The notes beneath the pieces were generated by a model that saw only the letters and a list, made by a program, of their open reading frames with translations, was not told the DNA's origin and did not search any database. A stretch of 64,000 nt of DNA. Origin: Cephalotus follicularis. Taxonomy: Eukaryota > Streptophyta > Magnoliopsida > Oxalidales > Cephalotaceae. Location: NCBI GenBank assembly GCA_001972305.1, contig BDDD01000062.1, positions 164,845 through 228,844 on the forward strand, given 5' to 3'. The first letter of the stretch is position 1. Each line of letters opens with the position of its first letter. This document shows positions 8,161 to 48,908 of this stretch, one piece after another. A program made the translations under genes and the position numbers.

Positions 8161-8464
8161 TATTTATGATATTAAAGTTATTATATTGTTTTCTTTGGAT
8201 AAAAGTATGTAAGGTTGACAGAAGGGGCCATGCGAGTGCTCAAGCACTGGCCACGTGTAGGTTAGGTCTCTGAGGCCCGTCATGTGGTTTTGAACCCTTT
8301 CACTATTACACAAAGTCCCTTTAGATGGAGAGAGAAAACCCAGTTCTATGCTTTGTGCCATATTTATATATAAGAATATAGAAAGAGATAATGGATAATC
8401 TATCCAGAATACCTGCTAGAAAGCACACATCAGGAAGAAGGGGTATCAATGGTTTTAAAACTTG
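8161..8464 (-). other. Probable PEX1 3' UTR / downstream flank
   Basis: This is the 304 bases after the PEX1 stop codon on the minus strand. The sequence is AT-rich and has no second coding exon. I see no unique polyadenylation signal, so the UTR end is not fixed; A-rich TATATATAA stretches near 8360-8375 are candidates only. Confidence 0.4.
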
Positions 8465-22678
<14,214 letters not shown>

Positions 22679-22991: not shown

Positions 22992-23856
22992 TGTTGATAC
23001 AGAAATCCTTCTCTCAACAGTATCTTACGTGGAAGATTTTAATTTGTTAAGAGGAACGCTCAAAAAGGATGTCTGGGAGGAAGACGTCGATCTCTGATTC
23101 CTGCACAAAGTAACAAACTGGTGGAAGGTCCAAGAGGTTGTTCTCCCGAGGACACTCCGACGCTCAAGTTAGACAATGTGCAGAGGATATAAGGTTCTTT
23201 ACAATGTAAAAATGGCTGACCTTTGATTTGTGTTTGATTCTTGTATTTATAGGGCTGGTTTGTAACTGTCTGAGCGTGAAAAGCGGAGGTGATAGTTGTC
23301 CCCTAAAGAAATGCCGAGGATCTCGGGATTTTCCTTATCTCCACCTGATTTATCGCTACCTTCCTTACTGGTAGTTAACTGTATCTTATCTTCTATATTT
23401 GGAAGATATGGATCCCTGAAAAGTAGGCTAACTTCATGGCTTCATTCCATAAATGAAGAGGGGATCCTTTGCCACAGATCTGCCGAGGAGGCGAACTGTA
23501 GTGATGCTAGTGAGGTAATCAGCCCCTTGCTTCAAGGTCTTCATCGTTTAAAGTTTCTCCATAGACTTGTGCTTGAAGTGAGTGGTCTTCTGCTATGTAG
23601 CCGAGGAGGTTCTCAGCACTGATGCTACAGAGGGGGTCCTCGGCCATGATGCCGAGGAGAGTAACCTTTGCGTAGCAACCGCGGGGTGGGTCTTCGGCAC
23701 CTATGCCGAGGAAGAATTCTTCTCATGTTACTGTTTTCGTAGCTAATAAGCTTCCTCTGACTTGAGTTCGTACAAACTTTAAAACTCTTGGACACTTAGC
23801 TGTGTTTGCGGAGGACACATGTCGTTTTTGGTTTAATTCAACTTTTTTCCATATCA
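22992..23856 (-). repeat. 3' LTR of element A
   Basis: On the minus strand it begins TGATATGG directly after the purine tract GGACCAGGGGGG and ends ...GTATCAACA, giving canonical TG...CA ends and 865 bp. Element B's LTR starts with the same TGATATG and ends ATCAACA, showing family relationship. It lies upstream of PEX1 in the same transcriptional direction. Confidence 0.8.
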
Positions 23857-24259
23857 TATGCCCCCCTGGTCCTTCTTCTCTGGCCTTGGTCAGAGGAGGA
23901 GGAGCAGAGTTGAGAGCCGTGGCTCAGGCCAAACTCCTCTACAAAGCTTCCTGCTAGCTTTCTTGTTTGTGAGCGAGCCGAGATCGTATGTATTGCCTTG
24001 GATGATCCTCTGATCAAAGCTGAATGTGCCTTGACAGAGGACCTAAATCTGCCTCCTTGTTTGCATCTGTCCCGTCTAACGGGCCTCGTGTTACGGGCCC
24101 AAATCATTGTAGTTAAGTAGCGTATTGAGCACAACTTACACCTGGCATAAGCAGAGCGTTTCCCGCCTCTGTCTCTTCGTCTCCTGCGCTCAATATGTCG
24201 GTTCACTTCTCAACCGCTAGATCTATGCTAGATGGAGGGCCAGGATTCAAGCTCTGGCC

Positions 24260-24267
24260 TATAAAAG
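24260..24267 (+). promoter_or_regulatory. TATA box, candidate promoter of the antisense ORF
   Basis: TATAAAAG lies about 220 bp upstream of the ATG at 24482, on the strand of the additional ORF and opposite to pol. A consensus TATA box here suggests the accessory ORF of element A has its own promoter. Confidence 0.5.
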
Positions 24268-24481: not shown

Positions 24482-26825
24482 ATGGCCAGAACCAAACAAA
24501 CTGCTAGGGCTTCTCCTCCCTTAGAGGTCGAACCCCTGGCCATGGTGGTTCCCCCCGCCAAGAGTTCCCTTTCCTCTGAAGGTAGCCTGGGGGCTGCGGT
24601 GGGTGACCCCACTATTCCCGTTAATGAGGCTGACACCCCTGCCCCTGATTGCTTTGGTGTCAGCGCTCTTTCTCGCGATGAGGTGCTTGCACTCTCTCGC
24701 AAGTATAATTTCCCTCTTGGGTTGAGATTTAGTCTCCCCTCGGATCCTCGGATGGTCACGGAGAGCAGAGAGGGTCTCTTCGCTGTCTTCGAGGGTGCTC
24801 TCTCTCACAGTCTGAGGATCCCAGTACCCTCTTTTGCCCTCTCGGTCTTGGAGACGTTTAATCTCCACCCTTCTCTTCTCCAACCCCAATCTTGGAGTTT
24901 CATTATAGGTTTCTTAGTTAGATGTATAGAGTCCGAGGTGAACGAAACAGTGGGATTATTCAAACATTTCCATGTAATCTCGTCCTAGCCAAGGAAACGT
25001 GGCTATTTCTTTAAGTCGCGTCCTGGCATAAAGAAACTTCTTGTCAAACCTACCCAATCCATCAAGAACTGGAGGAGGAGATATTTCCTCATAAAAAACT
25101 TTGAGGGGTTCACTCTCCCTGTCTGGTGTGATTCCGTGGAAACTACACGTCTCAACAGGAGGCCCTTATTGACAACGGCCGAGAACATTGACTTCGACAA
25201 ACTCATACACCTGGAGCCCGAGGAGGTGAACTCTGTCGTGGTCGAGGAGTGCCTGCTCCGAGTTGGGCTGAGTGTAGTTCCCAACCACTCGGCAGAGGTT
25301 GAGGAAGCCTCAGGGGGTGGGGGATCCTCTGATAACTCCATGCCTCAAGAGATGGGGGAAAATTGTATAAGCTTTCGTCTCCTCCGTCTTTCTGTCTTCG
25401 TATTCCTTCTGGTTTGATTTTAAGTTACTAACTTTCTTAACCTCTGTTTATGCAGCAATGGCTTCTCGCCGTGGATTCGACGCTCTTTTTAGTGCCACCA
25501 AAATCAGCAAGCCTTCCTCTACAGCGGTAGACAAGCAGAAGGCTGCCGAGGAAGCAGCCAAGCAGAAGGAGAAAGCCGCTGCTGAGGGGGCTAAGCAGAG
25601 GGCAAAGGCCGCCGCTGAGGGGGCCAAACAGATGAAGAAAGCTGCAGTTGCGGCCAAGGAGAAAGGATCCAAGCGTCCTGCTGGAGGGCGTTCCTCTGGC
25701 GGTCCTCCTCGTCCCCCAAGCAAGAAAGGGAAACTTATATCCGAGACCGAGTTGGATTCTATCCTCGGCCGGACCTCAGACGACCCCATCATCCTGCATC
25801 CTCCTCGGGACATGGAGAGGATGATTGAGGAGCTGGAGGGGGTTGGGAATGGCTCCTCCAGCCTGGATACACCGTTCGCCCTTAGTTCTCTATGCCTCTT
25901 CCCAGACGAGCTGAAGGAGAGGAAGGATTGGTCCAACAAGGACCTAATCCATAACTCTCTACGGAGCCATTTCGAGGTAAAGGGTGATCCTCTTCTTCTG
26001 TACCTTACATTCTTTATGTGTTCTCTGTTCTCATTCTTGTCTTCTTTGCAGGCTCTGAATGACCATCATCTCTTGGTCGAGAACTTCTCGATCATTTTGA
26101 GGAGGTATGACAAGGCGAGAGAGGAGCTGATGGTGGAAATGGAGACTTCTCAGGTGGCCAGAGCTCAACTTGAGGAAGTCCTCAGGGCCCAGGAGTCTGC
26201 TATAGAGGAAAGGAACAAGGCTGTGCTGGAGAAGGACCAATTGATAAATGACCTCTCCAAGGTTAGCGATCAGTACCGGACTCTGTAGCAGAAGCATGGG
26301 GAGTCCATCAAGAAGCATGAGGAGTTGCGGGCCAAGGCAGTGGAGGACGCCCTGGCAGAGTTCCAATCCTCGGACGAGTTCCATATCTTGATGGAAGCCT
26401 CCGTGGAGGACTTCAAAGCTTCTGAGGCCTTTAGCGAAGAGGTCTTCAAGGAATCTGCCGAATACTATCGTCGGGGGTTCTACACTTGCAGGAATTGGGT
26501 CAAGACTCTGCATCTAGAGGTTCCTTTGGACTAGGTCGCCTACTGCTCAGCTGCCAAGGCTTTCGATTACTATCCTGACGGATACGAAGCCGAAGAGCTG
26601 AAGGCCGAGGAAGCCTTGGAAGGGAGTGCTGGCCTTGGGGCCGAGGTAGAGGAAGGGGAAGTCCTGCCTGCTTCTGAAGGCGTTCCTCCTCCTGATCCCG
26701 CGTCGGCCTTGGCTTCTCTGTCTCTCTCTTCGGATCTTGTCACTCCCCAACCTCCTCAAACTAGGCCTTTTGTTCCTCCCCCTCCTGAGGATGAAACCTC
26801 TACTGATGCTCCTTCCTTAGCTTAG
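24482..26825 (+). pseudogene. Antisense additional ORF of element A (Transposase_28-like, H3-like N-terminus)
   Basis: Reading frames on the strand opposite to pol encode a protein of the putative gypsy-type transposon class (similar to Pfam Transposase_28). Near the N-terminus are LSRKYNFPLGLRFSLPSDP and, after the conserved ETFNLHPSLLQPQSWSFIIG, a WRRRYF-type region. Next come a lysine/alanine-rich low-complexity stretch (~25500-25680), coiled-coil-like segments rich in E/K/L, and an acidic Pro-rich tail. The first residues are Met-ARTKQTARAS, nearly the histone H3 tail. The copy lies in several frames separated by breaks or intron-like spacers and is treated as a fossil. Its molecular role is unknown; additional ORFs in Tat elements are known from several plants without an assigned function. 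The same ORF occurs in element B. Confidence 0.75.
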
Positions 26826-27600
26826 TTTTTGTAGGCTAGCTTTTTCTTCTTTTTTGCCTTGTAATAATTTTCCTTTTTCCGCACTTGTAATCTTCAATAT
26901 GTGAATAAAGATAGACTTTTTGCATTCTCTGATTTTGTCTTTATTTTTTGTGTTGCGAGCTTGATGTATTTTCACTTGGCATGTATGTTTACAATCCCCT
27001 TAAGGATTTTGCACACTGGATCCTCTGACTTCCCGTAGAAGCAGACACTACTCCAAAAGGACTTAAAGTAATTTATCAACGATATTAATAAAAAACCTTT
27101 TGTATCCTCGAACTTTACCCTCGATTGGTCCCTCATGTTGTGTGCTTGAGCTTTGTGTGTATACATGCACTGATAATCCCCTTAGGACTTTTAACTTAGC
27201 CCAAATCATTAGCTCTTCGTAGATGAGAACACTTAAGCCTGGCAATCCTCGTAGGACCCTTTACTTTTAAAAGTGCTTAAGTAACTGTAACCCAGTCTTC
27301 AAAAATTTTTTATTGTACTCATAGATTGAGTTCTTGGTCTGCTCGGTCAAGTTCCTATGGGTTTCCCGAGGAGAGTATCGTCTGACCTATTAGGTTTTAG
27401 GACAGGTCGGCTGAGTTTGCAGTCCACTTAGGGACACTTGTATTAAAGTTCTCAGTCCGACGAGCTTGATCGTTGCGAGTTCCCATGGATTCGCCTTTCA
27501 AGTCACGACTTTAGGTCTGGTTGGACAAGTTCCTATGGTGTTGCCGACTAGAATTTGCTCTCTGAGGAGTCTTAGTGCTTCCTTGGAAGTCTTAGGGTGT

Positions 27601-27696
27601 GCTCCTCGGAAGGAGTCTTCTGCATGCTCCTCAGAAGGAGGCTTCAGTGTGCTCCTCGGAAGGAGGCTTCAGTGTGCTCCTCGGAAGGAGGCTTTT
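27601..27696. repeat. 25-bp tandem repeats between pol and the extra ORF (element A)
   Basis: Four copies with GCTCCTCGGAAGGAGGCTT-type core start at 27601, 27626, 27651 and 27676. They lie in the non-coding spacer between the converging pol and antisense ORF. Element B has a comparable array at the equivalent place. Confidence 0.85.
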
Positions 27697-27993
27697 GAGG
27701 ATGCATCCTTGAATGCTTTCTCGGATGCCAGTTACTCTGGTCAGTTTGGGACCTCGGCTTGTGTTGGTTTTCCTTTTGAGGGTTAGTCTTCGTAAGACCT
27801 AGGAAGCTTTGGATCTCTAGGTGCCCCCTTGGGGGCATGATCCGAGGTGCTTAAAGCAAAGACTGAGGGAGTTGATCGGTGGTTGTTCAGAGGTTTGAGG
27901 ACATGAACATTGGACCTCCGTCCCTTGCAAACTTGGAAATATGACATTGAACACAAATTTTAAAAAATTCTTCATTCAAGACACATCTTACAA

Positions 27994-30900
27994 TCATTGA
28001 TAGTACTTTCTCAGATGCTCGGCATTCCAAGCTCTGGAAATCTCCCTACCCCCCAAAGTTTCAAGTTTGAATGTTCCTGGGCGGAGGACCCTTTTGATTT
28101 TGTATGGCCCTTCCCAGGCAGGGGCTAGCTTTCCTCTGGTACCGGTAGGATCTGCAACGGTTGAGTTGCGTAGGACTAGGTCTCTTTGCCTTAGTGGTCT
28201 GGGGCTTACTCTTTTGTTATAGTAACGGCTTATCCTCTGCTGGTAGGCTGCAACTCTGATAGCAGTTTTGTCCCTGAGCTCTTCCACTAGGTCGAGGAGG
28301 CACCTAAGACCTTCTTCGTTGTTGTCTTCAGTAAAGTGTACAACTCTTGGTGATTGTACTCCAATCTCCACCGGTATCATGGCTTCAGCTCCAAAACAAA
28401 GGCTGTATGGGGACTCACAAGTTGTGGTCCGAGGAGTGGTTCTATATGCCCATAGTACACTTGGTAGCTCATCTGTCCATCTTCCTTTGCTGTCTTCTAG
28501 GCGCTTCTTCAAGCCCAAGATGATTTCTCTGTTGATCACCTCGGCTTGACCATTACTTTGAGGGTAGGCTACTGAGGCAAGCCTATGCTCTATCCTCCAT
28601 TCCTTGCAAAAATCACGGAAGGCTTGGCAATCAAACTGTTTACCATTGTCTGAGACGATTGTCCTCGGAACTCCAAACCTACAGATGATTGACTTCCATA
28701 CGAAGCTCTCCGTGTTCTTCTCAGTAATTGTGGCTAGAGGTTCTGCTTCCACCTACTTGGTAAAGTAGTCCACTGCTACAATGAGAAACTTCCTCTGTCC
28801 TGAAGCCATGGGTAGTGGTCTAATGAAGTCCATTCCCCATTGCGCAAAGGGCCATGGGGCCGTGATAGACGTCAGAGGTTGAGAAGGTCTTCTGCTTATG
28901 TTTGCGTTCCTCTGACACTTGTCACACTTCCTTACCAGGTTTATAGCATCTTGATGCATGGTTGGCCAGTAGTAGCCTTGCCTCAACAGCTTGTGAGACA
29001 GTGTCCTGCCCCATGTGTGGTTACCACAAATTCCTTCATGGACCTCCCTTAGGGCGTAATCAGCCTCTGAGTGGTTCAAGCACCTCAGCCAAGGAAATGA
29101 GAAGGATCTTTTGTAGAGGATTCCATCTCAGAACTGGAATCTATTTGTTCTGTAGACCAGCTTCCTCGCCTCCACGGGGTCCTCGGGCAGGATCCCGTTC
29201 CTCAGCCAATTGATAAAGGGAGTCATCCAGTTTGGCTCCTGTGGTACATCTATGTCCATCACGGCCACTTCAGAGATGGTCGGCCTGTCCAGGTAGTCTA
29301 CTAGCACGGTTTGATTTTTCTCCAACTCCTCTACCGTGGCTAGTTTTGATAACTGGTCTACTCGGACGTTCTCTGCCCTGGGTACTTTCACAATCCTTAG
29401 AATTTCGAATGCTGACTTCATGCCCTGAAAATGGGATAAGTATTTTACCATAAGGTCTTCTCTGGCCTCATACTCCCCATTCGCCAGACCAACCACTAGC
29501 TGAGAATCACTAGAGGCTTCTATCTTTTGCACCTCCAAGTGCTTTGCAATTGTCAGTCTAGCTATCAGAGCTTCCCACTCAGCTTTGTTATTTGTAGCTT
29601 TGAGCTTGAACCTCAGAGCATACTCCAACGTCCAACCATATGGACTTGTCAATACTAGCCCTGCCCACTGCCAGTGAGGCAGGACGAACCGTCCATGGAT
29701 AGCTTCCAAATTCCCCTCTCGCTCTCGGAGGGGTGCTCCTCCATACACTCCGTAGGTGTATTATCTCCAATAAAGTCGGCCAGTACCTGTGATTTGATTG
29801 CTGGTCTGGCTTCGAACTTCACATCATACTCACCTAGTTCGACTGACCACTTAATTAACCTGCCCGAGGTGTCAGGTTTGGCAAGAACTTGTTTGAGTGG
29901 TTTGTCAGTCACAACCTTGATTGTATGGGCTTGGAAATATGGGCTCAATTTTCTGGCCGAGATGATCAAAGCATAAGCATACTTCTCCACCTCTGGGTAC
30001 CTCCCCTCTGCATCGTTCAGACCCTTGCTCACGTAGTATACTGGCTTCTGAATTTTTTCCTCTTCTCTGACTAGCACTGCACTCACTACGCCCGAGGTGG
30101 CCGCAAGGTACAAATAAAAGTCTTCCCCATCCTTGGGTTTCGAGATCAGAGGAGGGGGAGCCAGGTATTCCTTCAACTTGTCGAAGGCTGCTTGATAGTC
30201 GTCTGACCAGGAGAATCCCTTAGGATCTCTAAGTATTTTGAAGAAGGGAATGCACTTCTCTGCTGACTTTGACACAAACCTACATTAGGGCTGCAATCTT
30301 CCCATTTAATCTTTGGACATCCCTGATGGTTTGAGGTGGCCTCATGCTTTGAATTGCCGAGATCTTCTCTGGGTTAGCCTCTATCCCTCTGCTAGAGACC
30401 ATGAACCCGAGGAACTTTCCCGAGGTGACCCCAAATGTGCACTTGGACGGATTGAGTTTCATATTATACCTCCTCAGTACCTCAAACGTCTCCTCCAAGT
30501 CTTTTATGTGGGGGCTCCTGGCTGGGGTTTTGACGAGCATATCGTCTATGTACACCTCCATATTCTTCCCAATTTGAGGCTTAAAAATTTTGTTCACCAG
30601 GCGCTGGTAGGTGGCCCCTACATTCTTCAAGCCAAATGGCATAACCTTGTAGCAGTACATGCCTCAGTCTGTTATGAACGCTGTCTTGTTCTCATCAGGC
30701 TTGTACATGGGGATTTGATTATATCCCGAGTAAGCGTCCAAGAAGCTTAATATTCTGTAGCCCGAGGTTGCGTCTACTAGCTGGTCTATCTTTGGGAGAG
30801 GGAAGTGATCCTTTGGGCAAGCTTTGTTGAGGTCTGTGAAGTCTATGGACATCCTCCATTTGCCATTGGCTTTTTTGACTAGCACTGGATTCGCCAGCCA

Positions 30901-31370
30901 GTCTGAGTAGTGCACTTCTCTTATGAATCCTGCCTTCAGCAGCTTGCTCACCTCCTCTGCTATTGCCTGCTACCTCTCTGGGGCAAAGTTCCTCTTCTTT
31001 TGTCTGGTCGGGGGCCTGGCTGGGTCCACGCTTAGATTGTGAACCATTACGTCTGGGCTGATCCCAGGGAACTCCTCTGCCGACCATGCAAAAACATCTT
31101 TATCCTCTCAGAGGAATGTTATTAACTCCCCCTTCTCTGCCTCTCCAAGTTGTGAGCCAACTTGGAACACTTTCTCACTGTTGCCCTCTTCCATGGGCAC
31201 TTGGAGCACATCCTCAACAGGCTGTGGACACTCTGGTTCCATGTCTCCTCTGAGCTCCACGTTTGCTATGGGGAGAACCTTGCCCTTGCCCTTCCCCTTG
31301 TCCGAGATGGCAGTTTTGTAACATTGCCTTACTGCCTCTTGGAAAGTTCCTCGGGAAAGTTCCTTCAGAT
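27994..31370 (-). pseudogene. pol of element A (RT, RNase H, second RNase H, integrase)
   Basis: From high to low coordinate: a protease-RT linker, reverse transcriptase (~30280-30951, with MSIDFTDLNKACPKDHFPLP and the catalytic VYIDDMLVK), gypsy RNase H (~29700-30275, with YVSKGLNDAEGRYPEVEKYA), an archaeal-type RNase H (~29128-29650, with SSDSQLVVGLANGEYEARE), the integrase zinc domain with CDKCQRN (~28753-29079), and the integrase core plus C-terminal part (~27994-28752, with VSDNGKQFD and YPQSNGQAEVINRE). The domain order is that of Ty3/gypsy, and the second RNase H points to Tat. It is broken, with a handful of breaks. Confidence 0.88.
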
Positions 31371-31791
31371 CTACAGACACTTGGTCAGACCATTTACAAT
31401 ATGAAAGGATAACGCTCCATAACGCCAGAGCGCCAAATAAGGTAACGGTGCTAAATCCTCGGCTGTTTACTATGGGTACAATAATCATCTCTGCAAGCAA
31501 GGGAGTTACAACCAAGTTCTATAAATACTATAAAGCAACACTTTACACATGTATATCATTTTTAGACTTAAAGAACATTTGTGTTTTCTTCTCTGTTCAC
31601 TGCCTGACTTAAGCATCGAAGAGTCCTTGTGAGTGAAACCTCCTAGACCTTCGACTAGTTTGTTATTTCTGTGCATGGAGGATCGTAAACACTCAACCAT
31701 ATACCGTTCTCAGAGCATTCAGTTCGTTTCCCTCTACAAATCAAACTCTTCCACGTAAGGGACTGTTTTAGTATTGATTTTGACATCAATA
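31371..31791 (+). repeat. 5' LTR sequence of element B
   Basis: Aligns with the 3' LTR at 48409-48908 and ends ...ACATCAATA where the 3' LTR ends ATATCAACA. A primer-binding-like GTTGGAACCGTTTGTGGG follows at once. It lies against element A; the border between the two is placed only to within about 20 bp. Confidence 0.75.
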
Positions 31792-31838
31792 GTTGGAACC
31801 GTTTGTGGGAAAACGCAACAAGAAGTCATTGTGCTCAT

Positions 31839-33518
31839 GCCTGCGAGAAGAAACACTAACTCTACAACCACCAGCAGCCAAGCACCTGAGAATCAACCTC
31901 CTGCTGTCGGTCAAGTCACCGCTACAAAGCAGGCTCCCATCACTAGCGAGCAATTCAACTAGCTGCTTCAGGAAATGGGGCGTCTTACAACTCTGTTGGC
32001 CAATAATATAGCCAGCCAAAACTAGGCTGGTCAGAGCAGACTAGCCATCCAGGATAATGCTGGTCCGAGTAGGCCAGCCACAGAAGTTCAACAGCCCCAT
32101 GGGGCCAGGTGAAACCCGCCACGGAAGGCCATGCGCCCTCCAAGGCGGTTAGAGGTTGATACATCTCTGAGGAGGAGAACAGAGATTGAAACATCTCTAA
32201 GGGTGGAGTCTTCAAGTGCTAGGGATTGTAGTTACAATCCCCAAGAAGACCTTCCCGATCAAGACCCAATGGAAGAGGATTACTCGGTTGAGGAGGAGAC
32301 CCGAGCACGTTCCTACGCTTCTTGTAGGATAGGAACTCGCCCGAGGAGCAGGTCAAACCACTCAATCAGGCTTGCAACGGGTACATATCAAGTTTCTAGT
32401 CGGATCAACAATATTGACGATGTGGAGCAGACCATGAATAGAAGGTTTGCCAAGATAGAGAGGAGGCTTAGAGAAGCAGAGCATTCGAAGGGGTACCTGT
32501 CCGAGTTACAAAATATCAACACCACTCCTTTCACACCCGAGATAATGAAGGAGCGTATCCCAAGGGGATTCCAATTCCCGAGTCTCAAGGATTATGATGG
32601 GTCCACGGACCCAATCCAGCATGTACGCTACTACACACAAATCATGCTAGTTCACCAAGCCTCGAACGCGGTCATTTGCCGAGGATTCCTGACAACATTG
32701 ACTGGAGTAGCCCGGTCATGGTATTCTACTCTACCAGTGGATTCGGTGGTGAATTTCGAACAGTTTACGAAACTGTTCGTTACCAAATTCCCCAACAACA
32801 CCACACAGAGAAGGAATTCAAGTCATTTGATCAATGTGGTACAGGGAAAGGATGAGTCCCTAAGAGACTACCTCACCAGATTTAACAAGGAGTCTCTGAC
32901 AGTGAAGGATTTAGAACCGTCTTTCGCCCTGACAGCTCTGAACAGCGGGTTGAAAGGCAACTCACCTTTTACCTTCTCTCTTATGAAGAAGCCTGCTCAA
33001 GATATGGCTGACCTTCTCAGAAGAGTCGAGAAGTATGTGAATGCAGAGGAGGCAATGACCGCTAAGAAGCAGAAGACTTCTTGGTCGGGCCATCAGGTGG
33101 AGAAAGATGAGCATTCACGAAGTGCTCCAGGGAAGAAACATAAGAGAAATGAGAGGTCAGAGTAACCAAAGATGACCTCATGCATAAGCTCTCCAAAAGG
33201 GAGGAATCCCCAAAAATGGGAACACCAATTCTGAACTACAACAATTTTGCTCCTCTTTTAGAGTCGCGTACCAGGATTCTGGTAGTGGAAAAGGACAAGG
33301 TCCCGATCCAGTGGCCAGCAACATTGAGATCCGCACTGGAGAAGAGGGACTCAAACAAATATTGCTGGTACCATTGTGACCATGTGCACGATACAGAGGA
33401 GTGTAGGCATTTAAAGAATCATATTGAGGACCTGATTCGGAAGGGTCATCTAAGAAAATATCCTGACAGAAATGCTCCGCAGCAGAGAAGGGATCGCAGA
33501 GAAGAAACTCCGCAACAA
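31839..33518 (+). pseudogene. gag of element B
   Basis: It begins MPARRNTNS after the primer-binding site. The central retrotransposon gag domain is recognised by IPRGFQFPSLKDYDGSTDP, ARSWYSTLP and SLRDYLTRFNKES (~32550-32900). Further on, a CWYHCDHVHDTEEC zinc-knuckle-like motif followed by a basic tail (33360-33500) is typical of Tat gag, which binds element RNA in the virus-like particle. A few breaks are present. Confidence 0.82.
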
Positions 33519-34015
33519 GAATTGTTAGAAAGAGTTTGACCTGTCAAGCCACTAGGTGGTTCGATGTACTTGTACTCTGCTCATGATATATACAGTCTTG
33601 CTCTATTCATGTTACATTGTGCAAATTATATTTTATTATTGGCATAAACCGTATATATTTTATCACATAATTGAAGCATGACACTGCTTGCATATATGGT
33701 GTCCTATCACATCAAAGGGTTGGTTGTCGAGCCAAGGGCTATGAGAGCGACTTCCTTATTCCCTGTGACTAAACTGTTCCAAGTCATAGGTTCACTTATT
33801 TGGGGCATTCGTGAACCGGACAGACTTGCAGTATTGTGCTTGCTCTCGCGAATGGGAGGGTATAGTATCTCATTGCCACTTGGGTTGAACCCTAAAGCTA
33901 ATGCGGGGTGCTTGCTGGGAGCATGTACTTTGAACTTGACCCACCATGGGAATTCTACTTGGATGGTCACATATCCTGTGTCAGTGGAGTTTCCCATCTG
34001 AGACAGTAGTGTATA

Positions 34016-36360
34016 GAAATGAAGTAGAGAAACAAACGAGAAAGCCCATTAAAACACTTCGATCAGATCGAGGGGGCGAATACCTGTCTGCTGAGTTCCA
34101 AGATTATTTTAGAGATAATGGGATTCTCTCACAATGGACCCCTCCAGGAACACCACAGCATAATGGTTTGTCCGAACGGAGGAATTGGACATTGATGAAT
34201 ATGGTCCAGTCCATGATGTCTTTTGCAGACCTCCCTTCCTCATTTTAGGGTTATGCACTGGAAACATGTGCATATGTCCTTAATTGGATTCCTTTGAAAT
34301 CCGTTCCCTCCACTCCGTACCAGGTATGGACATGGAGGAAACCTAGCCTAAAACATTTGAGAGTTTGGGGCTGTCCAGCTCACGTTAGAAGGTTAGAACC
34401 TAGTACGCTGGAGGCACGATCAGATCGGTGCCAGTTTATGGGGTATCCCAAAGAAACGATGGGATATTATTTCTACCATCCCAGTGAACAAAAGGTGTTT
34501 GTTTCGTGTACTGCAATTTTTTTGGAGAAGGAATACCTACTCGCAGGAAGCAGTGGGAGCAAAGTGGAACTCGAGGAGTTGCCACTGGAAGAAATACCAC
34601 AGAACGGAAAGGAATTAGAGGCTAGTACCTCTAGAGACACATATGAGATTAGATCCCAGCATGAGATTAGATCTCATACAGGCACTCCTCAAGTAAGGAG
34701 GTTAGGCAGGGTTTCAACAGCGCCAGAGAGATATGGTTTTCTCGTCAAAGGCACTGATGAACCCAACATCATTGAGGATGATGAGCTTGCCAACTATCAG
34801 GAAGTAGTGCAAGGCACTGATTCTGCTGCATGGTTAGATGCCATGAAATCCGAGATGGATTCCATGTACGCCAACCGAGTTTGGAACTTGGTCGAAACTC
34901 CCGAGGGCATAGTGCCTATTGGTTGCAAGTGGATCTTCAAGAAGAAGATTGGTGCAGATGGAAAGATTAAGACATACAAAGCGCTATTGGTAGCGAAAGG
35001 GTATAGACAGTGACATGGGGTCGATTATACCGAAACTTTCTCACTAGTTGTGATGCTCAAATCTATTCGGATTTTGCTTGCTATTGCCGCTCATTATGAT
35101 TATGAGATATGTCAAATGGATGTTAAGATTGCGTTCTTAAATGGACATCTTGAAGAGGACATTTATATGTCCCAACCCGAGGGGTTTACATCCACTGAAT
35201 CTTCGCACATGGTGTGCAAGCTTCAGAGGTCGATATTTGGCCTAAAGCAAGAATCTAGGAGCTGGAACATACGTTTTGATTAGGCTATCAAGTCTTTTGG
35301 CTTCATTAAAAATGTAGATAAGCCTTGTGTCTATCGAAAATAGGAAAACTCAGGTATCACTTTCTTGGTGCTATACATGGATGACATTCTAATCATTGGG
35401 AATGATGTAGGGATGTTGTAGTCCGTGAAAGTATGGCTAGCCAAGAACTTCTCCATGAAGGATTTGGGAGAAGCCTCCTTCATACTTGGTATAAAGATCT
35501 ACAGAGATAGATCTAGTAGGTTGCTTGGGCTTTCCCAAAGCCAGTACATCAGCAAAGTGCTGAAACGATTCAGTATGGAGAATTCCAAATGGGGCTTATT
35601 GCCAATAGGCCATGGAATTCAACTTTTCAAGAAGATGTCCCCGCAGACATCTAAGGAAAGGACAGTCATGAGTCGGATACCCTATGCTTCGGTTGTGGGA
35701 TCGATCATGTATGCCATGCTGTGTACTAGGCTTGATGTCGCACATGCCTTGGGTATGGCAAGTCTTTTTCAGTCCAATCCCGGTTTGAAACACTGGGAAG
35801 TAGTCAAAGGGATTCTTAAGTACCTTAGGATGACTCAAGATGCCTTCTTGATCTACGGTGGAGATAGTGAGTTGAAATTGGAGGGATACACTGAATCCAA
35901 TTTCAATAGTGGTCCAGATGATCAGAAACCAGTGTTGGGATATGTCTATATCCTGAATGGCGGTGCTGTGAGTTGGAGAAGCTTAAAACAGGAAACAACA
36001 GCAGACTCCACAACGGAAGTAGATTATATAGCAGCCTTAGATGCTGCAAAGGAAGGTGTTTAGATGCGTAAGTTCATAGCTGAACTTGGAGTGGTTCCAA
36101 CCATTAATCGTCCTGTAGTCCTCTACTGTGACAATAATGGGGCTGTTGCACAAGCCAAGGAGCCCAAGTCTCACCAGCGTTCCAAGCATATCCAGCGGCG
36201 TTATCACTTGATCTGAGAGATCATTGACAGAGGAGACATTGTATTAGAGAGGGTTGCCTTAGAGGAAAATTTAGCAAACCCACTTACTAAAGCTCTTAGT
36301 AGTAATATATTTGAGCGTCATCGGAGTGTGATGGGCTTGAACTATAGGGCTTCTTGGCTT
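34016..36360 (+). pseudogene. Copia pol remains (integrase, reverse transcriptase, RNase H)
   Basis: Integrase core with TLRSDRGGEYLS and TPQHNGLSERRN (~34050-34250), and the GCPAHVR region (~34370). Reverse transcriptase shows WNLVETPEGIVPIGCKWIFK (~34880), QMDVKIAFLNGHLEEDIYM (~35110) and LYMDDILIIGN (~35370). RNase H carries AEVDYIAAL-like residues (~36020) and a C-terminal region near 36240 that resembles the usual KHI...RDIV...G motif. Fossil; the order is standard for copia. Confidence 0.88.
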
Positions 36361-36378
36361 GAGGGCCAAGTGGGATAT

Positions 36379-38418
36379 TGTTAGAGAGAGTGTGACCGGT
36401 CAAGCCACTAGGTGGTTCGATGTTCTTATACTCTGCTAATTATATATACAGTCTTGTTCTATTCATCTTACATTGTGCAAATTATATTTTATTATTGGCA
36501 TAAACCATATATGTTTTATCACATAATTGAAGCATGACACTGCTTACATATATGGTGTCATGTCACATCAAAGGGTTGGTTGTCCAGCCAAGGGCTATGA
36601 GAGCGACTTCCTTATTCCCTGTGACTAAACTGTTCCAAGTCATAGGTTCACTTATTTTGGGCATTCATGAACCGGACAGACTTGCCGTATTGTGCTTACT
36701 CTCGCGAATAGGAGGGTGGGGTATCTCATTGCCACTTGGGTTGAACCCTAAAGCTAATGTGGGGTGCGTACTGGGAGCATGTACACTGAACTTGACCCAC
36801 CATGAGAATTCTACTTGGATGGTCACATATCCTGTGTCAGTAGAGTTTCCCATATGAGACAGTAGTGTATAGACTCTACGAGTTTAGCAAGTTCTTGATC
36901 GACTTGTCTGATCCTTAGACCTGAGTGGCTACTGTGCATTTCATAGAGACTGTCTGACTTTTATTTTTTCCCTATCCAGTTCTTTCGCAGGACTGACAAA
37001 CATGCAGCTTTTGGGTCTTACAGGATTTATGTGAATGTAAGTGAGTGCGCAGCAAGGAATCGTCACACCTGATGTGAGAGTGATTGGCTCTATAATATCT
37101 GTATTCATTGTGGAATTTGAAATACCGGGTCAGGTTATGGTGAGCTGGAACCTAGGGTTTCTAGAAAGGCTTGTCGATAGTCATAATGGTAAAATACGGA
37201 TTTATAGATACCGACATATCTAGGGTTGACACGTATCCTTACCCTAGGCCATGATCGGAGCCGAGAATGATGAGGGATTATAGTACACGGTAACTGTTGT
37301 CAAGATAAAGTATCGGATGTATCGGAAACGGACTTAATTGTGGAAATTAATCAAGAGATTAATTTACACATATGGAATATGATAGTCATAGGTTCAGGGT
37401 CTTAAAAGTAGTCAAGGACTATTTATAGTAAGATTACTTAAGAGCAAGGTGTCTTAGTAACACACCATCGTTACTGATTAATTCTGGACTTTTGGGTCCC
37501 GCCTCACGAGTATATGTATCAGATACATATATCGTATTGTTTTATAACGTGTGATGACACATGTTATATTGTGGTGTATGAGTGATGTTATGTGACTAAT
37601 TAGTTGACATAATATGCTAATATGTTTTTGGTATTAATTAATAAATAGATTATTAATTCTCTTATTAAGTAATAAATAATAATTGAATTATTATTTATCT
37701 TTCTTTTTATTGACTGCTGCATGTGATCAACATGTTGGTTGTTAGACAACCAATATAATAAGTAGCCAAATAAATATAACACGTTAAAACATTTCTTCTC
37801 TTATCCATTCCATATGTCAACGTGACAAAATGGAAAAAGGATTTGCATTCAAATGGAATGAAATCCTGATAGCACGTTTGGTTGTTATCATCTTATAATT
37901 GGGGAACAAATTCTGGGGATAAGGAGAGAGAAGTTAAAAATGTGTGAGGAGAGGCTGGATTTTAAATGAGAAGAACCTGGACACTTTTGACATGAGAGAG
38001 TGTGAGTCTGGTGTTTTTGCTTCTTAGAGAACAAAACAGAGAAAAGAGAAAATATACCAAAACATACCACTACTTGATTTCTATAGCTGGTGTATTGTTT
38101 TCATTGAGGATTACATTCCTTATATTGATCCTAGTCTAGGATTATAAATATAGGTTTCGGTTTATTTGTTATTCCGCTGCTGTTCGTTCCTGAGTGAAAG
38201 CTTGAAGTCTCAGAATGGATACTTGAAGGAAGGAGTTGGTTGCTTGGTATAAACTCTATCCTTCTATGAATGTTTATTTTGTTTATCTGGATTGTTGATT
38301 AGCAATCCTAGGTTGTTTGTATTCGTTTATGGTGTTAGATAATGGATGTTCTTTGTTTTGAGCCACTTTAATGAAAATTAATGCCTAAAATGACCATAAA
38401 CTCAGTTTTATTCTTACA
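36379..38418 (+). repeat. 3' LTR of the nested copia element
   Basis: 2040 bp, TGTTAG...TTACA, directly followed by the AGAAT target duplication. Its first ~490 bp match 33523-34015. Confidence 0.88.
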
Positions 38419-38423
38419 AGAAT

Positions 38424-39028
38424 AGCAGCAGCAGCCCATGGGTGTGATACACACCATCTCTAGAGGGGTTGCATCTGGTTACGACTATATCAGGGCTCGA
38501 AAAGCCTATGCTAGACAGACCTTTGCTGTGCAACAATACAAGCATAGCAAAAGGTTGAAGTCATGTGGAGAAGAGGAGGTAATATCCTTCTTAGAGGTGG
38601 ACTATGAGGGAGTACGTCTCCCTCACGATGATCCAGTGGTGGTGACTCTTCAAGTGGAATTATTCACTATGAAGAGAATCCTTATTGATAGTGGGAGCTC
38701 AGCGGATATCCTTTACAAGGATGCTTTTGATCAATTGAGGATACCCGCCAACCAACTGAGGCCAGTGAAGACTCCCCTAGTTGGTTTCGTAGGAGAGATG
38801 GTCCATCCTCTAGGATCCATTGACTTGTCAGAGTTACGGGCACGACACCACGCCAAACCTAGGTACAAATGACATTCCTGGTAGTTGATACGCCAAGCCC
38901 GTACAATGCTATGGTCGGGCGACCATGATTAAACTTGATGGAAGCAATAGTGCCGACAAGGCACTTATTGGTAAAGTTCCCGACCAGGTTTGTGTGGGAG
39001 AAGTCCAAGGAGACCAACAGATGACAAG
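38424..39028 (+). pseudogene. Protease region of element B
   Basis: After the copia insertion the gypsy coding sequence resumes with GVIHTISRG, a motif common upstream of the Tat protease. The aspartic-protease signature ILIDSGSSADILY follows at ~38670-38710. The sequence then runs up to the solo LTR at 39029. Fossil with a few breaks. Confidence 0.82.
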
Positions 39029-41195
39029 TGTTAGGTGAGATGACCCGACAAGCCATTAGATGGGATGTCATATTGTATCGATCCATGAATATAAACGATC
39101 TTATTCCTTATATGAAATGTTCTAATTTGTTATGACAATATCATTTGTGTTTTATCAATTGATTGAAGTAGTTTATTATTTACCTACGTACGCTTATGAT
39201 GCCCTGACATAAGGTTGGATGCCTAGCATGGAGGCTGTGAGATTGGTTACTTTATTCCTTATGTCGAATTAGTTCCAAGTCATAGGTTCACTTTGTGGGC
39301 ATTAGTGAACCGGATAGACTTGCACGTATGTTGCCTGCTCATGGAATTGGAGGATGGATTCTCTCACTACCATCTGTGTTGGACACTAGGGTAAATACGG
39401 GGTACGCACTGAGAGCGTGTACACTGAACAGGACCCACGTGGGAGACACTGTTTGGATAGTTGCTATTCTCGTGTCAGCAGTACTTCTACTTGTTGCGGT
39501 TGTGTATAAGTGTTAGTCACTTAGCGAGTTCTCAAACTCGTCTGATCCTTAGACCTGAGCGACTGCTCTATATTGTATGGAGACGATTATGCTTTGATCT
39601 CCACCTTACCCAGTCCTTGCACAGGGCTGGCAATCGGGTGGTCTTTGGGTATGATCGAATCTATACGAATATAAGCGAGTGCGTAATAAGGGATTGTCAC
39701 ACCTGAGCGAAGGTGATCGATCCTATCATGGTCTGATTGTACTTTGGACTTATGAAATCCTTGACCAAGGTTGAGGTAGATTGGAAATTAGATTTTCGGA
39801 GAATCTACCAAAGGTCCTAGTAATAATCCGATATTTTAGGAGTTGAGGTATTATCTAGGGTTGACACATATCCTTACCCTAGACCTCAATCGGGGTCAAG
39901 TATGACAAGGGATTATAGTACACGTGAACCGACAACTTAGAAAATCTAGGTTAAAGATTGTGTAATAAATTATGGGAAAATTAATTAGATTAATTTTTCC
40001 CATCTGGATAATATTAGATATTATTCAGAGAGCATTTAAATTGATCTATGATAATTTAGAATGGCTAGACCGAACCCTAGGGGTATTTCTATAATTTATG
40101 ATCACCTCCGATTTTAACCAAGATTTTTTATTGTCCCTGCTCAATCATGATTAGTTCTTTAATATGCTGGACATATTAAGTCTTGGTGTTAAATATCGGT
40201 TAAGTGGATTTTACATTTTATGTATATACATTTGTTTAATCTTACTTAATCAATATTTTGAAGGGTACATGAAATCACTAAAAGAGTTAGACTCAATTTG
40301 CTTCACCTGCCAGTCAAAGCATCAACACCTTCTAGGAAGCGTCGACACTTAACACTTGTATAGGCGTCGTTGTCTTTTAGAAAGACGTCGACGTTTAGTG
40401 CCATGTTTTATATAGGCGTCAACGCTTTTGTTGAAAGCGTTGACGCTTTGTGCGAGTTGTGCAACATGTGCACGATCACACATCATGGGCACATTCTCTC
40501 TCTCATCCATTGCCATTTTCTCACGTCCCTACATGATATGTACACATAGGGATCATGGTTTTGAACCCCCGGGGAGTTAGCACCATGATCCCTAGTGTAT
40601 GGGAGAGTGGGAGAGAGGGAAAGAAGGCTGGTGAGATGCAAAATCTGCAGAAAACTAGTTGATATATAAGAGAGTTTTTTGCTGGGCAAAGTGTGTTCGA
40701 AGTTTTCTCTGCAAATTGTGAGTTCTTTACACTGATATACACCAAGCAATTGCTTGTCTAGGGTGGATTCATTTTGGCTAAGTCTTGTCAACACCAATTT
40801 ACTCTTCTTAAGCCTAGAGAGAAAGTGAGAGCATATTGTTTTTGTTTTTTGCTGGTTGGAGTAACTTCTGTACCAGGGACTTTGGGAGCAACTAGTTTGG
40901 TATCTTCCCAAGCGTGTAGCGGCAGAGAAAGAAGGAGCCATCACCCGTTGGTATATCTTCTTGTCTCCCTCTCTTGTTGCCATGCTTGTGTGTCACCTTT
41001 GCTTGCCATTGGTGACACTAATTCTATTAAGTTGATGATGTGGTGATCCTTATGACTTATGGTCTTGCCATAATGGACTGTTTTGTTTATGTTAATGGTG
41101 GTTTTCCGCTGCATATTATGTTTAAAAGTTTTGTTCTACACCTGTTCTAGCTAAGTCCATTTGTGGCATTGGAAATGGTTTTTCCGTTTCCATCA
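39029..41195 (+). mobile_element. Solo LTR nested in element B
   Basis: 2167 bp with TGTTAGG start and CATCA end, flanked by ACAAG (39024-39028) and GCAAG (41196-41200), a 5-bp target duplication with one mismatch. Element B coding sequence continues on both sides. It contains the AAGTCATAGGTTCACTT and GTGAACCGG-type blocks that also mark the copia LTRs of this window, so it is a copia-type LTR of a related but different family. No internal region is present, as expected after LTR-LTR recombination. A cluster of GCGTCRACG-like motifs sits at 40330-40450. Confidence 0.8.
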
Positions 41196-41200
41196 GCAAG

Positions 41201-44200
41201 ACAGTGTTATAAGACTGCCATAATGGACAAGGGGAAAGAGAAGGCCTTACCCATAGCTAATGTGGAGCTCAGAGGAGAAGTAGAACCCAAGCATCCACAG
41301 CCCGTGGAAGATGTTGTGCAGGTGCCTTTAAAGGAAGGCAATGCAGAAAAAGTTTTCCAGGTTGGCTCACAACTTGGAGAGGTGGAGAAAGAGGAACTAA
41401 TAACGTTCCTCAGAAATAACAGAGATGTGCTTGCTTGGTCGACAGAGGAGATCCCAGGGATCAGTCCAGAGGTGATGGTGCATAAGCTGAGTGTAGATCC
41501 AATGAGGCCTCCGACCAGGCAAAAGAAAAGAAACTTCGCTCCCGAAAGGCAACAGGTGATAGCATATGAAGTAAACAAGCTATTACAAGCAAGGTTTATA
41601 AGGAAAGTGCAATATTCTGACTAGCTGGCGAAGCCGGTCCTAGTCAAGAAAGCGAATGGCAAGAGGAGGATGTGCATAGATTTTACAGACCTCAACAAAA
41701 TTTGTCCAAAAGACCACACCCTCCCGAATATTGATCAATTGGTGGATGCAACATCCAGTTACAGAATGCTAAGCTTCTTGGATGCATACTCGGGCTATAA
41801 TCAAATCCCTATGTTTGGGCTAGACGAGAATAAGACAGCTTTCATCACTGATAGGGGCATGTAATGTTACAAAGTTATGCCCTTCTGATTAAAGAATGCT
41901 AGGGCGACCTACCAACGATTGGTCAAAAAAAATTTTGAACCTCAGATTGTGAGGAACATGGAGGTTTATATTGACTATATGCTCGTCAAAACACCAGCAA
42001 AGAGTCCTCACATTAAAGACTTGGAGGAGACTTTTAAAGTACTGAGGAGATACAAAATGCGTCTCAATCCTTCCAAGTGTACTTTTGGGGTTACTTCTGG
42101 TAAGTTTCTCGGGTTTATGGTTTCAAGCAGAGGAATAGAAGCCAACCCAGAGAAGATTTCGGCAATTCAGAGCATGAGGCATCCTCAATATATCAGGGAC
42201 GTCCAGAGATTGAATGGTAGAATTGCAGCTCTTAGCAGATTTGTTTCCAAGTCAGCGGAGAAATGCCTTCCCTTCTTCAAGTTGTTAAAGAATCCCAAGG
42301 GGTTTCTTTGGTCTAAAGAATGTCAAGCAGCCTTCCAGAAATTGAAGGAATACATAGCTTCCCCTCCTTTGATATCAAAACCAAGAGATGGGGAAGACTT
42401 GTATTTGTACCTTGCTGCAACATAAGGCGCAATGAGTGCAGTGCTAGTCATGGAAGAGGATAAAGTTCAAAGGTCAGTATATTATGTGAGCAAGGCTTTG
42501 AATGATGCTGAGAGGAGGTACCCAGAGGTAGAGAAGTATGCTTATGCTCTGATTATTGCGACAAGAAAGCTAATACCGTATTTTCAAGCCCACCGTATCA
42601 AAGTTTTGACCGACAAGCCACTTACACAAGTTCTAGAAAAGTCAGACATGTCAGGTAGATTAGTCAAGTGGTCTGTCAATTGGGCGAGTATGATGTCAAG
42701 TATGAAGCCAGACTAGTGATGAATCACAGGTCTTGTCCGACTTTGTAGGAGACAATATACTTACAGAGTGTATGGAAAAGGACTCCTCAGAAAATGAAAA
42801 GGGGTTATAGAAGCTATCAGTTGATGGATCATCCTGCATGGATCATCCTGCATCTCCGGAAGTGGAGCGAGCTTGGTGCTAACTAGCCTTGATGGATGGA
42901 CCTTGGAGTACGCTCTGAGATTTGGGTTTAAAGCTACAAATAATGAAGCAGAATGAGAAGCTCTGATCGTCGGACTAACAATTGCAAAGCACTTAGAGGT
43001 TCAAAAAATAGAAGCCTCCAGTGATTCTCAACTGGTGGTTGGTCTGATGAGTGGAGAGTATGAGGCCAGAGAAGAGTCCATGGCTAAATACCTAGCCCAT
43101 GTACAAAATTTGAATATCGCTTTCCAAGTCTTCCGGGTGTTGAAACTTACCAGAACAAATAACGCCAAAGCAGACCAGTTGTCAAAACTAGCTACAACGG
43201 AGGAATTAAAGAAAAATCAGACTGTGCTAGTAGATTACCTGGATATGCCCACCATTTTAGACATGGACGTGATGGACATCGATGTACCACAAGAGCCAAA
43301 CTGGATGACTCTGTTCATTAGTTGGCTAAGGGATGGAATTTTTCCAGAGGACCCAGAGGAGGCAAGAAGGTTGGTATATAGATCCAACCGTTACCAATTC
43401 AGAGAAGGAATCCTCTACAAAAGGTCTTTTTCTTTCCCTTGGTTGAGATGTTTGACTCTTTTAGAGGTCGACTACGCACTAAGGGAAGTCCATGATAGAG
43501 TATGTGGAAACCACACGGGGGGCAGAACCTTGTCCAACAAATTGTTGAGACAGGGTTATTTCTGTCCGACCATGCACCAAGATGCCATCAACTTCCTAAG
43601 GAAATGTGATAAATGCCAGAGGAATTCCAACACAAGTAGAAGACCTTCACAGCCTTTGACATCGATCACTGCCCCTTGGCCCTTTGCACAATGGGGAATG
43701 GACTTCGTCCGACCATTACCGGTGGAGACAGGGCAGAGAAAATACCTCATTGTGGCAGTGGACAACTTCACCAAATGGGTAGAAGCCGAGCCCCTAGCTA
43801 CAATAACAGAGAGGAATACATAAAGTTTCGTCTATAAGTCAATCATTTGTAGATTTGGAGTCCCAAGAGTAATTGTCTTTGATAATGGGCAGCAATTTTA
43901 CTGCCAAGCTTTTCGTGACTTTTGCAAAGAATGGAAGATTGAGCATAGGCTTGCTTCGGTAGCCTACCCCTAGAGCAATGTCCAAGCAGAGGTCGTTAAC
44001 AGAGAGATCATCTTATGGTTGAAGAAACGACTCGAAGATAGCAAAGGAAGATGGACCGAGGAACTACCAAGTGTGTTGTGGGCTTACAGAACCACTCCTC
44101 AGACCATAACTGGTGAGTCCCCATTCAGCCTTTGTTTCGGATCAGAAACTATGATACCGGTGGAGATTGGGGTGCATTCCCCTAGAGTGGTGCATTTCAA

Positions 44201-44536
44201 TGAAGCTAATAATGAATAAGGGTTAAGGAATCTCCTCGACTTAGTGGAAGAGCTCAGAGATAAGGTACAATCAGAGTAGCAGCCTATCAACAGAGGGTGA
44301 GTCGTTATTACAATAAAAGAGTAAACCCCAGACCACTAAGGGAAGGAGACCTAGTCCTCTGTAATATGGCAATAGCTGATCCTACCAGCACCAAATGAAA
44401 GTTATCTCCTAATTGGGAGGGGCCCTACAAGGTGAAGAAAGTGCTCAGACCTGAAACATTCAAACTTGAAACTCTAGGGGGCAGGGATATTCCTAGAGCT
44501 TGGAATGCCGAGTATCTAAGAAAGTATTATCAATGA
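41201..44536 (+). pseudogene. pol of element B (RT, RNase H, second RNase H, integrase)
   Basis: Order as in element A: RT with DFTDLNKICPKDH and DAYSGYNQIP (~41680-41820), followed by a clear NPSKCTFGVTSGKFLGF block (~42065-42120). RNase H shows YYVSKALNDAERRYPEVEKYA (~42480). The archaeal-type RNase H shows SSDSQLVVGLMSGEYEAREE (~43020). The integrase zinc domain shows CDKCQRNSN (~43605) and its core shows FRDFCKEW-like and NREII segments (~43900-44010). The C-terminal part ends near 44536 with AWNAEYLRKYYQ. It is closely related to element A's pol but more decayed, with perhaps ten breaks. Confidence 0.86.
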
Positions 44537-44836
44537 AGATTGTAAAGTGTACAAACATTCAAGAATGTCAATACAAAGAATATTTTCTTCAAACGGAAGT
44601 TGCATAGTTCCAAGTTTGCAAGGGACAGGAGGTCCAATGTTCACGTCCTTAAACCTCTGAACAGCCTCCGATAAGTTCCCTAAATCAAAAGCTTTGATAC
44701 AAGCTTGTCAGACCACACTCTCAAGGGAGTAATCAGAGCAAGCCTTTATACAGGACCAGGGCTCACCAAGTCTCGAACAGACTAAGTATAAAAGTAGACT
44801 AATATCTAGAACAGACCAATGTCTATCATCCGAAAA

Positions 44837-44996
44837 GACTCCCATCCGAGGAGCGCCAAAGACTCCCATCAGAGGAGCACCGAATACTTCTATGGGAGTA
44901 GTACTAAAAGACTCCCAATGGAGCAAAGCTAAAAGACTCCTAAGGGAGCAAAGGATTTCGAAGGAAGCAATCAAAAAGACTCCCAAGGAAGCAAAT
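44837..44996. repeat. ~25-bp tandem repeats between pol and the extra ORF (element B)
   Basis: GACTCCCAT/GACTCCCAA-type units ending in GAGGAGC or GGAGCA start near 44837, 44861, 44910, 44935 and 44978. The position matches the array of element A, and the unit has a similar purine/pyrimidine layout when read on the other strand. Confidence 0.65.
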
Positions 44997-45639
44997 GTAG
45001 GTCGGCAAAGCCATAAGAACTTGTCAGACCAATTAAATATCGTAACTTGAGAGGCGAACCTATAAGAACTCGCAACGATCAAAGTTGTTGGACTGAGCGC
45101 TTTAATACAAGTGCTCCTACGAGGGTTGCAAGTTTAGATGACCTGGTCAGAAAAATATCAGACCAGACGAGACCCTGGTTTGCAAATCCATAAGAACTTG
45201 TCAGACCAGACCTAAAACTTGGTCTGCGAACACTTAAGAACTCGCAAAGACCAAGTCTCTTTGCCTAAACGCTTTTGATACAAAGTGTCCTACAGGGACT
45301 AGAAAGCTTAGATAACCTAATATGAAAAATATCATACCACTACAAAAAAAAGTCTATAAATAACATAGACTAAGTAAAAATTCCTAAGGGAATTACAAAA
45401 TCTCGAACGAAGCAAAAGAAGTTGCATTTTTATTGTTCAGAAACAAAAAGTACATTACATTAGCAAAGTACTACAAAAAGCACAAAGGCAAAAAAGAAGA
45501 AAAATTCTACTCTAAGATTCGTCCCCTGAAGGGATGTTATGCACAGGAGGGGAATAAGGCACTTGAGCATCCTCGGGCAAAGGTACAAAATTGGGATCCT
45601 CGACAGGATCAATGTAAGGGACCAAAGCTCTTGGATGAT

Positions 45640-47881: not shown

Positions 47882-48408
47882 CTTGAGATTTGTGAAGAGG
47901 AGAGAGAGGGACAGAGATTAAGAAGCCGAGAAAAACCCTGGAAAGACCCAAAGAGTTTTACGAGAACAAACAAGGTAACACAGATTACTGAGAGTAGCAT
48001 AGTAAAATTTCAAAGAGAGATTGGGTTGAAGATTGGGAAAGCTGCAAGATTTGAGTGCACAGAAGCTTTGAAAGTTTGAGAAGCGTAAAGGAACTTTGTC
48101 AAGAAGAAAGAGCAATTTAAAGAACCCTAGATCGCGTTCAGACCTTTAGATCTCTGCTGAATTAAACGGTTGAGATGAACCCGTCAAATCAGACGCGGGA
48201 TACAAAGAGGTTATGCCCGACAACTGAAAGGACATAAAACGAAAGTGACTTTTGCTCTGCCGTATCATAACTATGCCAGATATGGGCAAATTGAAAAGGC
48301 CAAAATGACTTAGCAGTCCTAATCAAGCACCAAAGCCCTGCTCAAAGCCAAGCCATTAATGGTCTTCCTCCTCTACCAAGCCCAGAAAATGAAGACCAGG
48401 GGGGCATA

Positions 48409-48908
48409 TGATATGAATTTTTTTTTGTATAAACAAAACTGCCACGTGTCCTCTAAAAAAACAAGACAAGTGTCCTTCAGAGCTATAGACACGTGGTTAG
48501 ACCATTTACAATCTGAAAAGATAACACTCCATAACGCCATAGCGCCAAATAAGGTAACGGTGCTAGATCCTCGGCTGTTTCCTAGGGGTACAATAATCAT
48601 CTCTGCAAGTCAAGCAAGAGAGTTACAACCAGGTTCTATGAATACTATAAAGCAACACTTTACACAGGTCCGCCATTTTTAAACTTAAAGAACCTTTGTG
48701 TTTTCTTCTCTGTTTACTGTCTGACTTAAGCATCGAAGAGTCCCCAGGAGTGAAACCTCCTGGACCTTCGACTAGTTATCTATTTGTGTGTAGGGAGGAT
48801 CGTAAACACTCAACCCTATACCGTTCTCGGAGCATTCAGTTCATTTCCCTCTACAAATCAAACCCTTCCACGTAAGGGACTGTTTTGGTGTTGATTTTGA
48901 TATCAACA
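48409..48908 (+). repeat. 3' LTR of element B
   Basis: Begins TGATATGAATTT right after the purine tract GACCAGGGGGGCATA and ends GATATCAACA; 500 bp with TG...CA ends. It pairs with 31371-31791. Confidence 0.85.

Follow-up and report, generated by a model that had tools for sequence, protein, structure and literature searches.

The window we analysed, a stretch of 64,000 nucleotides of Cephalotus follicularis contig BDDD01000062.1, contains two decayed LTR retrotransposons, here called element A and element B. Element A is read on the minus strand and element B on the plus strand, with the following landmarks:

23850-23866, minus strand: polypurine-tract-like GGGGGGCATATGATATG of element A, taken as the border of its 3' LTR; an identical 17-mer lies at 48399-48415 on the plus strand in element B
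27329-31334, minus strand: pol region of element A, with 75% DNA identity to 41194-45219 of element B
30280-30660, minus strand: reverse transcriptase (RVT_1) of element A, from a domain match
31357-48906, plus strand: element B, with LTR-like copies at 31357-31789 and 48468-48906 (89% identical), gag at 32131-33165 and, at 41194-45219, the part of pol homologous to A

The identity of the two pol regions, taken over 4066 aligned positions, is read as an old separation of A and B. The 17-mer of both elements sits inside a 57-bp match of 86% identity, and this is the sole match between the 3' end of element A and the LTR of B. In element B some 8 kb separate the end of gag (33165) from the pol part shared with A (41194), and B's own pol may begin earlier.

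Both elements carry an accessory open reading frame (ORF). In element A it runs on the plus strand from 24482 and lies antisense, between pol and the 3' LTR side, since the reverse transcriptase and pol, and the polypurine-like tract, flank it on the opposite strand; the earlier note had called the frame antisense to the element, and the minus-strand RVT_1 match bears this out. Element B mirrors this layout, with its accessory frame on the minus strand from 47881, the polypurine-like tract on the plus strand and the LTR-like copy at 48468-48906 beyond it. Judged by these features, element A is a decayed Tat/Retand-type Ty3-gypsy element and the frame is its antisense accessory gene, containing the PF04195 (Transposase_28/TRP28) domain. 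The assignment of both elements to the Retand/Tat lineage follows from PF04195 together with the layout, as described in the available passages of PMC11963269 and PMC6317226. There, Retand is placed within the Tat clade (Neumann 2019, PMC6317226) and treated as a non-chromovirus lineage (PMC11963269), and 97% of the Retand clusters with recent activity are reported to contain TRP28 antisense ORFs, whose domain is predicted to bind DNA (Vicient 2025, PMC11963269); Lotus japonicus is named there as a Retand host. The parts of the two accessory genes are as follows:

24260-24267, plus strand: TATA-box-like TATAAAAG, a candidate antisense promoter beginning 222 nt before the ATG of element A, between the polypurine-like tract and the ORF
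24482-24508, plus strand: H3-tail-like N-terminus of the element A accessory protein, MARTKQTAR, from translation and a six-frame scan
24482-25364, plus strand: predicted exon 1 of the element A gene, with PF04195 at residues 103-166, broken by an in-frame TAG at 24986-24988; donor GTATAAG at 25365 placed by frame continuity
25456-25976, plus strand: predicted exon 2, MASRRGFDALFSATK..., lysine/alanine-rich, after the acceptor TTTATGCAG; its ORF is 25458-26288
26052-26825, plus strand: predicted exon 3, ending SLA-stop, with in-frame TAGs at 26286-26288 and 26532-26534
47855-47881, minus strand: H3-tail-like N-terminus of the element B accessory protein, MTRTKQTFR, from translation and a six-frame scan
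47342-47881, minus strand: first part of the element B accessory ORF, homologous to exon 1 of A, with PF04195 on 47342-47611 (E=1.9e-9, 38 bits), broken by a TGA at 47614-47612

The uninterrupted ORF of element A (24482-24988, plus strand) has 168 codons. The Met at 24482 is the first in frame, as no other Met lies between it and the closest in-frame stop, 21 codons upstream. The gene looks spliced, as the donor at 25365 and the acceptor ending at 25455 keep the frame into the second ORF; 25977-26051 is probably another intron. With the in-frame stops listed above, the element A copy is broken. A similar intron donor is seen in both accessory genes (25360-25460, plus strand, and 46952-46850, minus strand), with GTATAAG following a T in A and GTATTAAG following a T in B; the expected acceptor of the B intron reads GCAA where A has GCAG, and appears lost. 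Within exon 2 of A, 25458-25700 (plus strand) is lysine/alanine/glutamate-rich and repeat-like, and the counterpart in element B (about 46850-46600, minus strand) is also rich in A, K and R though poorly aligned to A. Upstream of the two starts, B has only TTTAAATT at -240 as a counterpart to the TATA-like string at -222 in A.

With matches admitted up to E=1, exon 1 of element A hit a single Pfam family, PF04195 (E=2.8e-9; 37.5 bits, cutoff 26.2). The scan of element A took in exon 1, the exon-2 ORF and 24989-25417, and no histone domain was found in these parts. AlphaFold2 was given exon 1 of A, cut at its stop, together with two pieces of B, and the resulting model (mean pLDDT 40.3, pTM 0.25) was too poor for use.

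The start of the element A protein is of a different kind. The histone H3 tail, as given in the earlier note, reads ARTKQTARKS. Translation of 24482-24514 (plus strand) gives MARTKQTARAS, agreeing with the earlier reading of an H3-like peptide that is in register with the start codon. Past the Met, H3 is matched at nine of ten residues, the one mismatch being Ala for K9, and ten of 11 agree when the Met is counted. The likeness thus stands at the exact N-terminus of the protein. When the first 20 residues were compared with PDB sequences by phmmer (E up to 10), a single match was returned, Histone H3 (7uqj_G, E=1), with residues 1-12 on 1-12; the whole protein of 168 residues gave 0 matches in the same search. 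Under a first-order Markov model of the window (2521 ATGs, both strands), an ATG followed by ARTKQTAR is expected 8e-8 times, and an ATG directly followed by RTKQT 8e-4 times. In the six-frame scan of the window only two sites reached at least five of nine matches to MARTKQTAR, and these are the starts of the A and B accessory proteins. The B start agrees with H3 at 7/11 residues, Met counted, and its first 20 residues had no PDB match by phmmer at E up to 10.

The two accessory proteins, which share the PF04195 domain, are 43% identical over 181 aa, and their comparison allows the constraint on the tail to be examined. In a global BLOSUM62 alignment with gaps, residues 1-9 match at 7/9 positions, and residues 10-57, which may be slightly over-matched by this procedure, at 10/48. 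Windows of nine residues starting at residues 10-49 have at most four matches, against seven for the tail, and windows in the conserved domain past residue 57 have up to 8/9; the tail is conserved like the PF04195 domain, and no more than it. In the codons for R, T, K, Q, T and R, A and B show five differences, all of them at third positions, while every first and second position is identical. We relied on these plain codon-position counts because NG86, applied to just the nine codons of the tail, gives a pS >1, a few-site artefact. Saturation of synonymous sites is seen across the whole of exon 1 (pS 0.81), and residues 10-57 show a dN of 1.05 and a dS of 1.61. When eight residues were drawn at random from residues 2-60 of B, the observed 6/8 matches were reached in 16 of 1,000,000 trials. 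Chance is disfavoured both by this draw control and by the Markov expectation for ATG plus ARTKQTAR.

The DNA before the two ATGs behaves differently. The 260 nt directly upstream show no similarity between A and B, 701 of 1000 shuffles doing as well. When the comparison was extended to 400 nt before each start, the top local alignment scored 30, a score reached by 2/200 mononucleotide shuffles and, in a second run, by 3/1000; the aligned patch, at about 24173-24217 in A and thus ahead of the TATA-like site, may represent promoter sequence that has been conserved. Because the changes in the six shared tail codons are synonymous only, the neighbouring residues have diverged, the observed match is rarely reached in the draw control and the 260 nt upstream are dissimilar, we conclude from the sequences that selection acting on the protein preserved the tail peptide during at least some of the time that separates A and B. 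This conclusion concerns 2/2 copies in the window, both decayed and from one genome. The earlier note had named relatives without the motif, or unconstrained codons, as what would speak against it; the one relative found here favours it instead, with the motif in register and its six shared codons changed at synonymous positions alone.

Which part of H3 is imitated can be read from the residues common to both copies, namely R2, T3, K4, Q5, T6 and R8 in H3 numbering. In B, Ala1 is replaced by Thr and A7 by Phe, and the positions of K9-S10 are A-S in A and Y-I in B. The kept residues, R2-T6 plus R8, surround K4 and belong to the part of H3 held by H3K4 readers and erasers. The initiator Met is normally cleaved off when Ala or Thr follows it, and some H3 readers have a tight pocket for Ala1. 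Of the proposed exposed Ala-Arg-Thr-Lys end, Arg-Thr-Lys is kept in both copies, but Ala1 is Thr in B and is not strictly conserved. As the K9 site is absent from both copies, the idea is narrowed to readers and erasers of the H3K4 type and away from competition for H3K9 enzymes. A decoy for enzymes of the SUVH/KYP type is unlikely, since neither copy has the ARKS box on which H3K9 enzymes act. In the available passages of one study (PMC6327041), the PHD1 domain of KDM5A is bound by an H3 1-10 peptide, which raises enzyme efficiency, and JMJ14 was crystallised in complex with a 7-mer H3K4me3 peptide; from these peptide lengths, a tail as long as that of the accessory protein could work if its N-terminus were free. 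The same passages report that an N-terminally acetylated 21-mer did not bind KDM5A PHD1 at the concentrations used, and by analogy an acetyl group on the initial Ala or Thr would probably prevent binding by PHD domains.

With this in mind, one may consider that selection has maintained a mimic of the H3 N-terminal tail on the antisense TRP28 accessory protein of the two Retand-type elements, a reading that we regard as evenly balanced. According to this reading, the accessory protein would be expressed and its initiator Met removed, leaving a mature start of (A/T)-R-T-K-Q-T-x-R, and the roughly 50 poorly conserved residues between the tail and the PF04195 domain would serve as a flexible leash. 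The protein would presumably be nuclear, a location published for the related Grande GENE23 protein, and its tail would there occupy pockets of the H3K4 type, be they those of PHD or BAH-PHD readers, of JMJ14/KDM5- or KDM1/LDL-type demethylases or of the WDR5-type subunits of COMPASS. The PF04195 domain or the basic parts may meanwhile bind element DNA, RNA or integration complexes. One outcome could be that an H3K4-type complex is brought to the element for its transcription or targeting; another, that the protein acts as a decoy weakening a silencing that depends on H3K4 demethylation. Recruitment and decoy cannot be told apart from sequence. A wider and more tentative extension, which we would currently bet against, is that TRP28 proteins of Retand elements in eudicots and monocots alike share a selected H3(1-8) mimic that commandeers or blocks the reading and erasing of H3K4 by the host.

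Several other explanations deserve weighing against this mimicry of H3. The most serious, although we hold it to be rather unlikely, is that RTKQT is conserved for another job, for instance as a basic nuclear import signal, for binding of nucleic acids or a partner, or as an N-terminal processing or stability signal, and that its likeness to H3 is coincidental. The string is short and basic, the likeness was picked out by eye, and only about six residues are kept, H3 positions 1 (A/T) and 7 (A/F) differing between the copies. However, a generic basic signal has no need for the exact T-K-Q-T and for R8, and one would expect it to show conservative swaps (K/R, T/S), yet the six kept codons have changed only synonymously; moreover, RTKQT, for which a place directly after an ATG is already expected at only 8e-4 per window, is seen one residue later in both homologues. 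The absence of any constraint, with the likeness due to chance or to two copies of recent common ancestry, is the least probable of the alternatives. The codons are few, and a patch lying farther upstream than the 260 nt likewise exceeds chance similarity (the 3/1000 shuffles above), but the saturated synonymous sites, the diverged neighbouring residues and the draw control largely contradict it.

Two further explanations accept that the likeness to a histone is real. Plant CENH3 tails can start with MARTK, which favours imitation of the centromeric histone, whereby the element or its protein would be steered to the centromere machinery. In the same vein, the CENH3 of Chlorella sorokiniana has the N-terminus MARTKQTKPSPSKRGA, used as its antigen peptide, which has ARTKQT in common with element A (PMC11005252). 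Against this, both copies retain the R8 of H3, while positions 7-8 are Lys-Pro in the Chlorella CENH3, and element A matches H3 itself at nine of ten residues; we consider this explanation improbable. Still a little less credible to us is the idea that an ancestral element took up the promoter and first codons of an H3 gene, a captured 5' end that has since eroded and plays no mimic role at present. It would account for the nine of ten H3 residues in A and for translation beginning at the same Met, but exon 1 has no Pfam histone match, 0/7 histone-promoter octamer and hexamer strings occur in the 600 nt upstream of either start, and the constraint persisted while the synonymous sites of exon 1 became saturated. 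A captured histone gene as such is likewise disfavoured by the missing promoter strings and by PF04195 as the only Pfam match of exon 1, which fits the earlier statement that this is not one. The interpretation of the tail as an H3 mimic, as that note had framed it, is thus supported in part: this holds for the peptide, its register, the constraint between two divergent copies, the domain and the antisense position, whereas translation, Met removal, a free N-terminus and reader binding would be its predictions, and the strict conservation of Ala1 is lost.

The accessory proteins of A and B resemble the Retand TRP28/PF04195 proteins, including Retand ORF4, and the related Grande GENE23 in having the PF04195 domain and in lying antisense between pol and the 3' LTR. 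The GENE23 protein is nuclear and its gene is transcribed from a promoter upstream of it (PMC7264820). Unlike the proteins of A and B, those in the available passages of PMC11963269 and PMC7264820 are described with no mention of an H3-like N-terminus. As the function of TRP28 antisense proteins is stated there to be unknown (PMC11963269), a conserved H3 tail would provide a concrete and testable hypothesis for it.

Histone mimicry is known from viruses and cells, influenza NS1 being one case. EZHIP has been termed an oncohistone mimic (PMC6513997, available passages), and with both of these the accessory proteins share a short histone-like peptide in an otherwise unrelated protein. They differ in that the peptide stands at the extreme N-terminus, matches the K4 end of H3 (residues 1-8) and belongs to an accessory protein of a plant LTR retrotransposon, as a putative mimic. 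A parallel may also be drawn with the chromodomains of chromovirus integrases (PMC6317226, available passages), where a retrotransposon protein also engages the H3 methylation system, putatively so for A and B; these chromodomains read methylated H3, whereas the A/B protein would present an H3-like ligand. If the mimicry is real, LTR retrotransposons join the genetic parasites that imitate histones.

None of the literature matches listed describes a retrotransposon accessory protein with an H3-like N-terminus, which is not proof of absence. The string MARTKQT is present in literature text, in passages that include a CENH3 antigen and an EZHIP-H3.3 fusion, and MTRTKQT and four other variants had no matches there. 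Further relatives were sought in viral contigs (with the exon-1 protein, the A/B alignment and an RT fragment), in prokaryote genome contigs (with the A/B alignment and the RT fragment) and in plasmids (with the exon-1 protein), none of which is a plant collection, and none were found.

The surroundings of the two elements hold other repeats. One family, with about 67-94% identity among its pieces, occurs at 33521-39924, partly inside element B, and at 50822-51625 and 59245-60048. At 56606-57046 and 60349-60696 (minus strand) lie what look like remains of a CACTA-type transposon (Transposase_21, E=2.7e-39; DUF4218, E=2.6e-21). Towards the other end of the window, an ORF at 8430-8948 (minus strand) presumably resembles the C-terminal AAA part of the plant peroxisome protein PEX1, so that a host gene may flank the elements.
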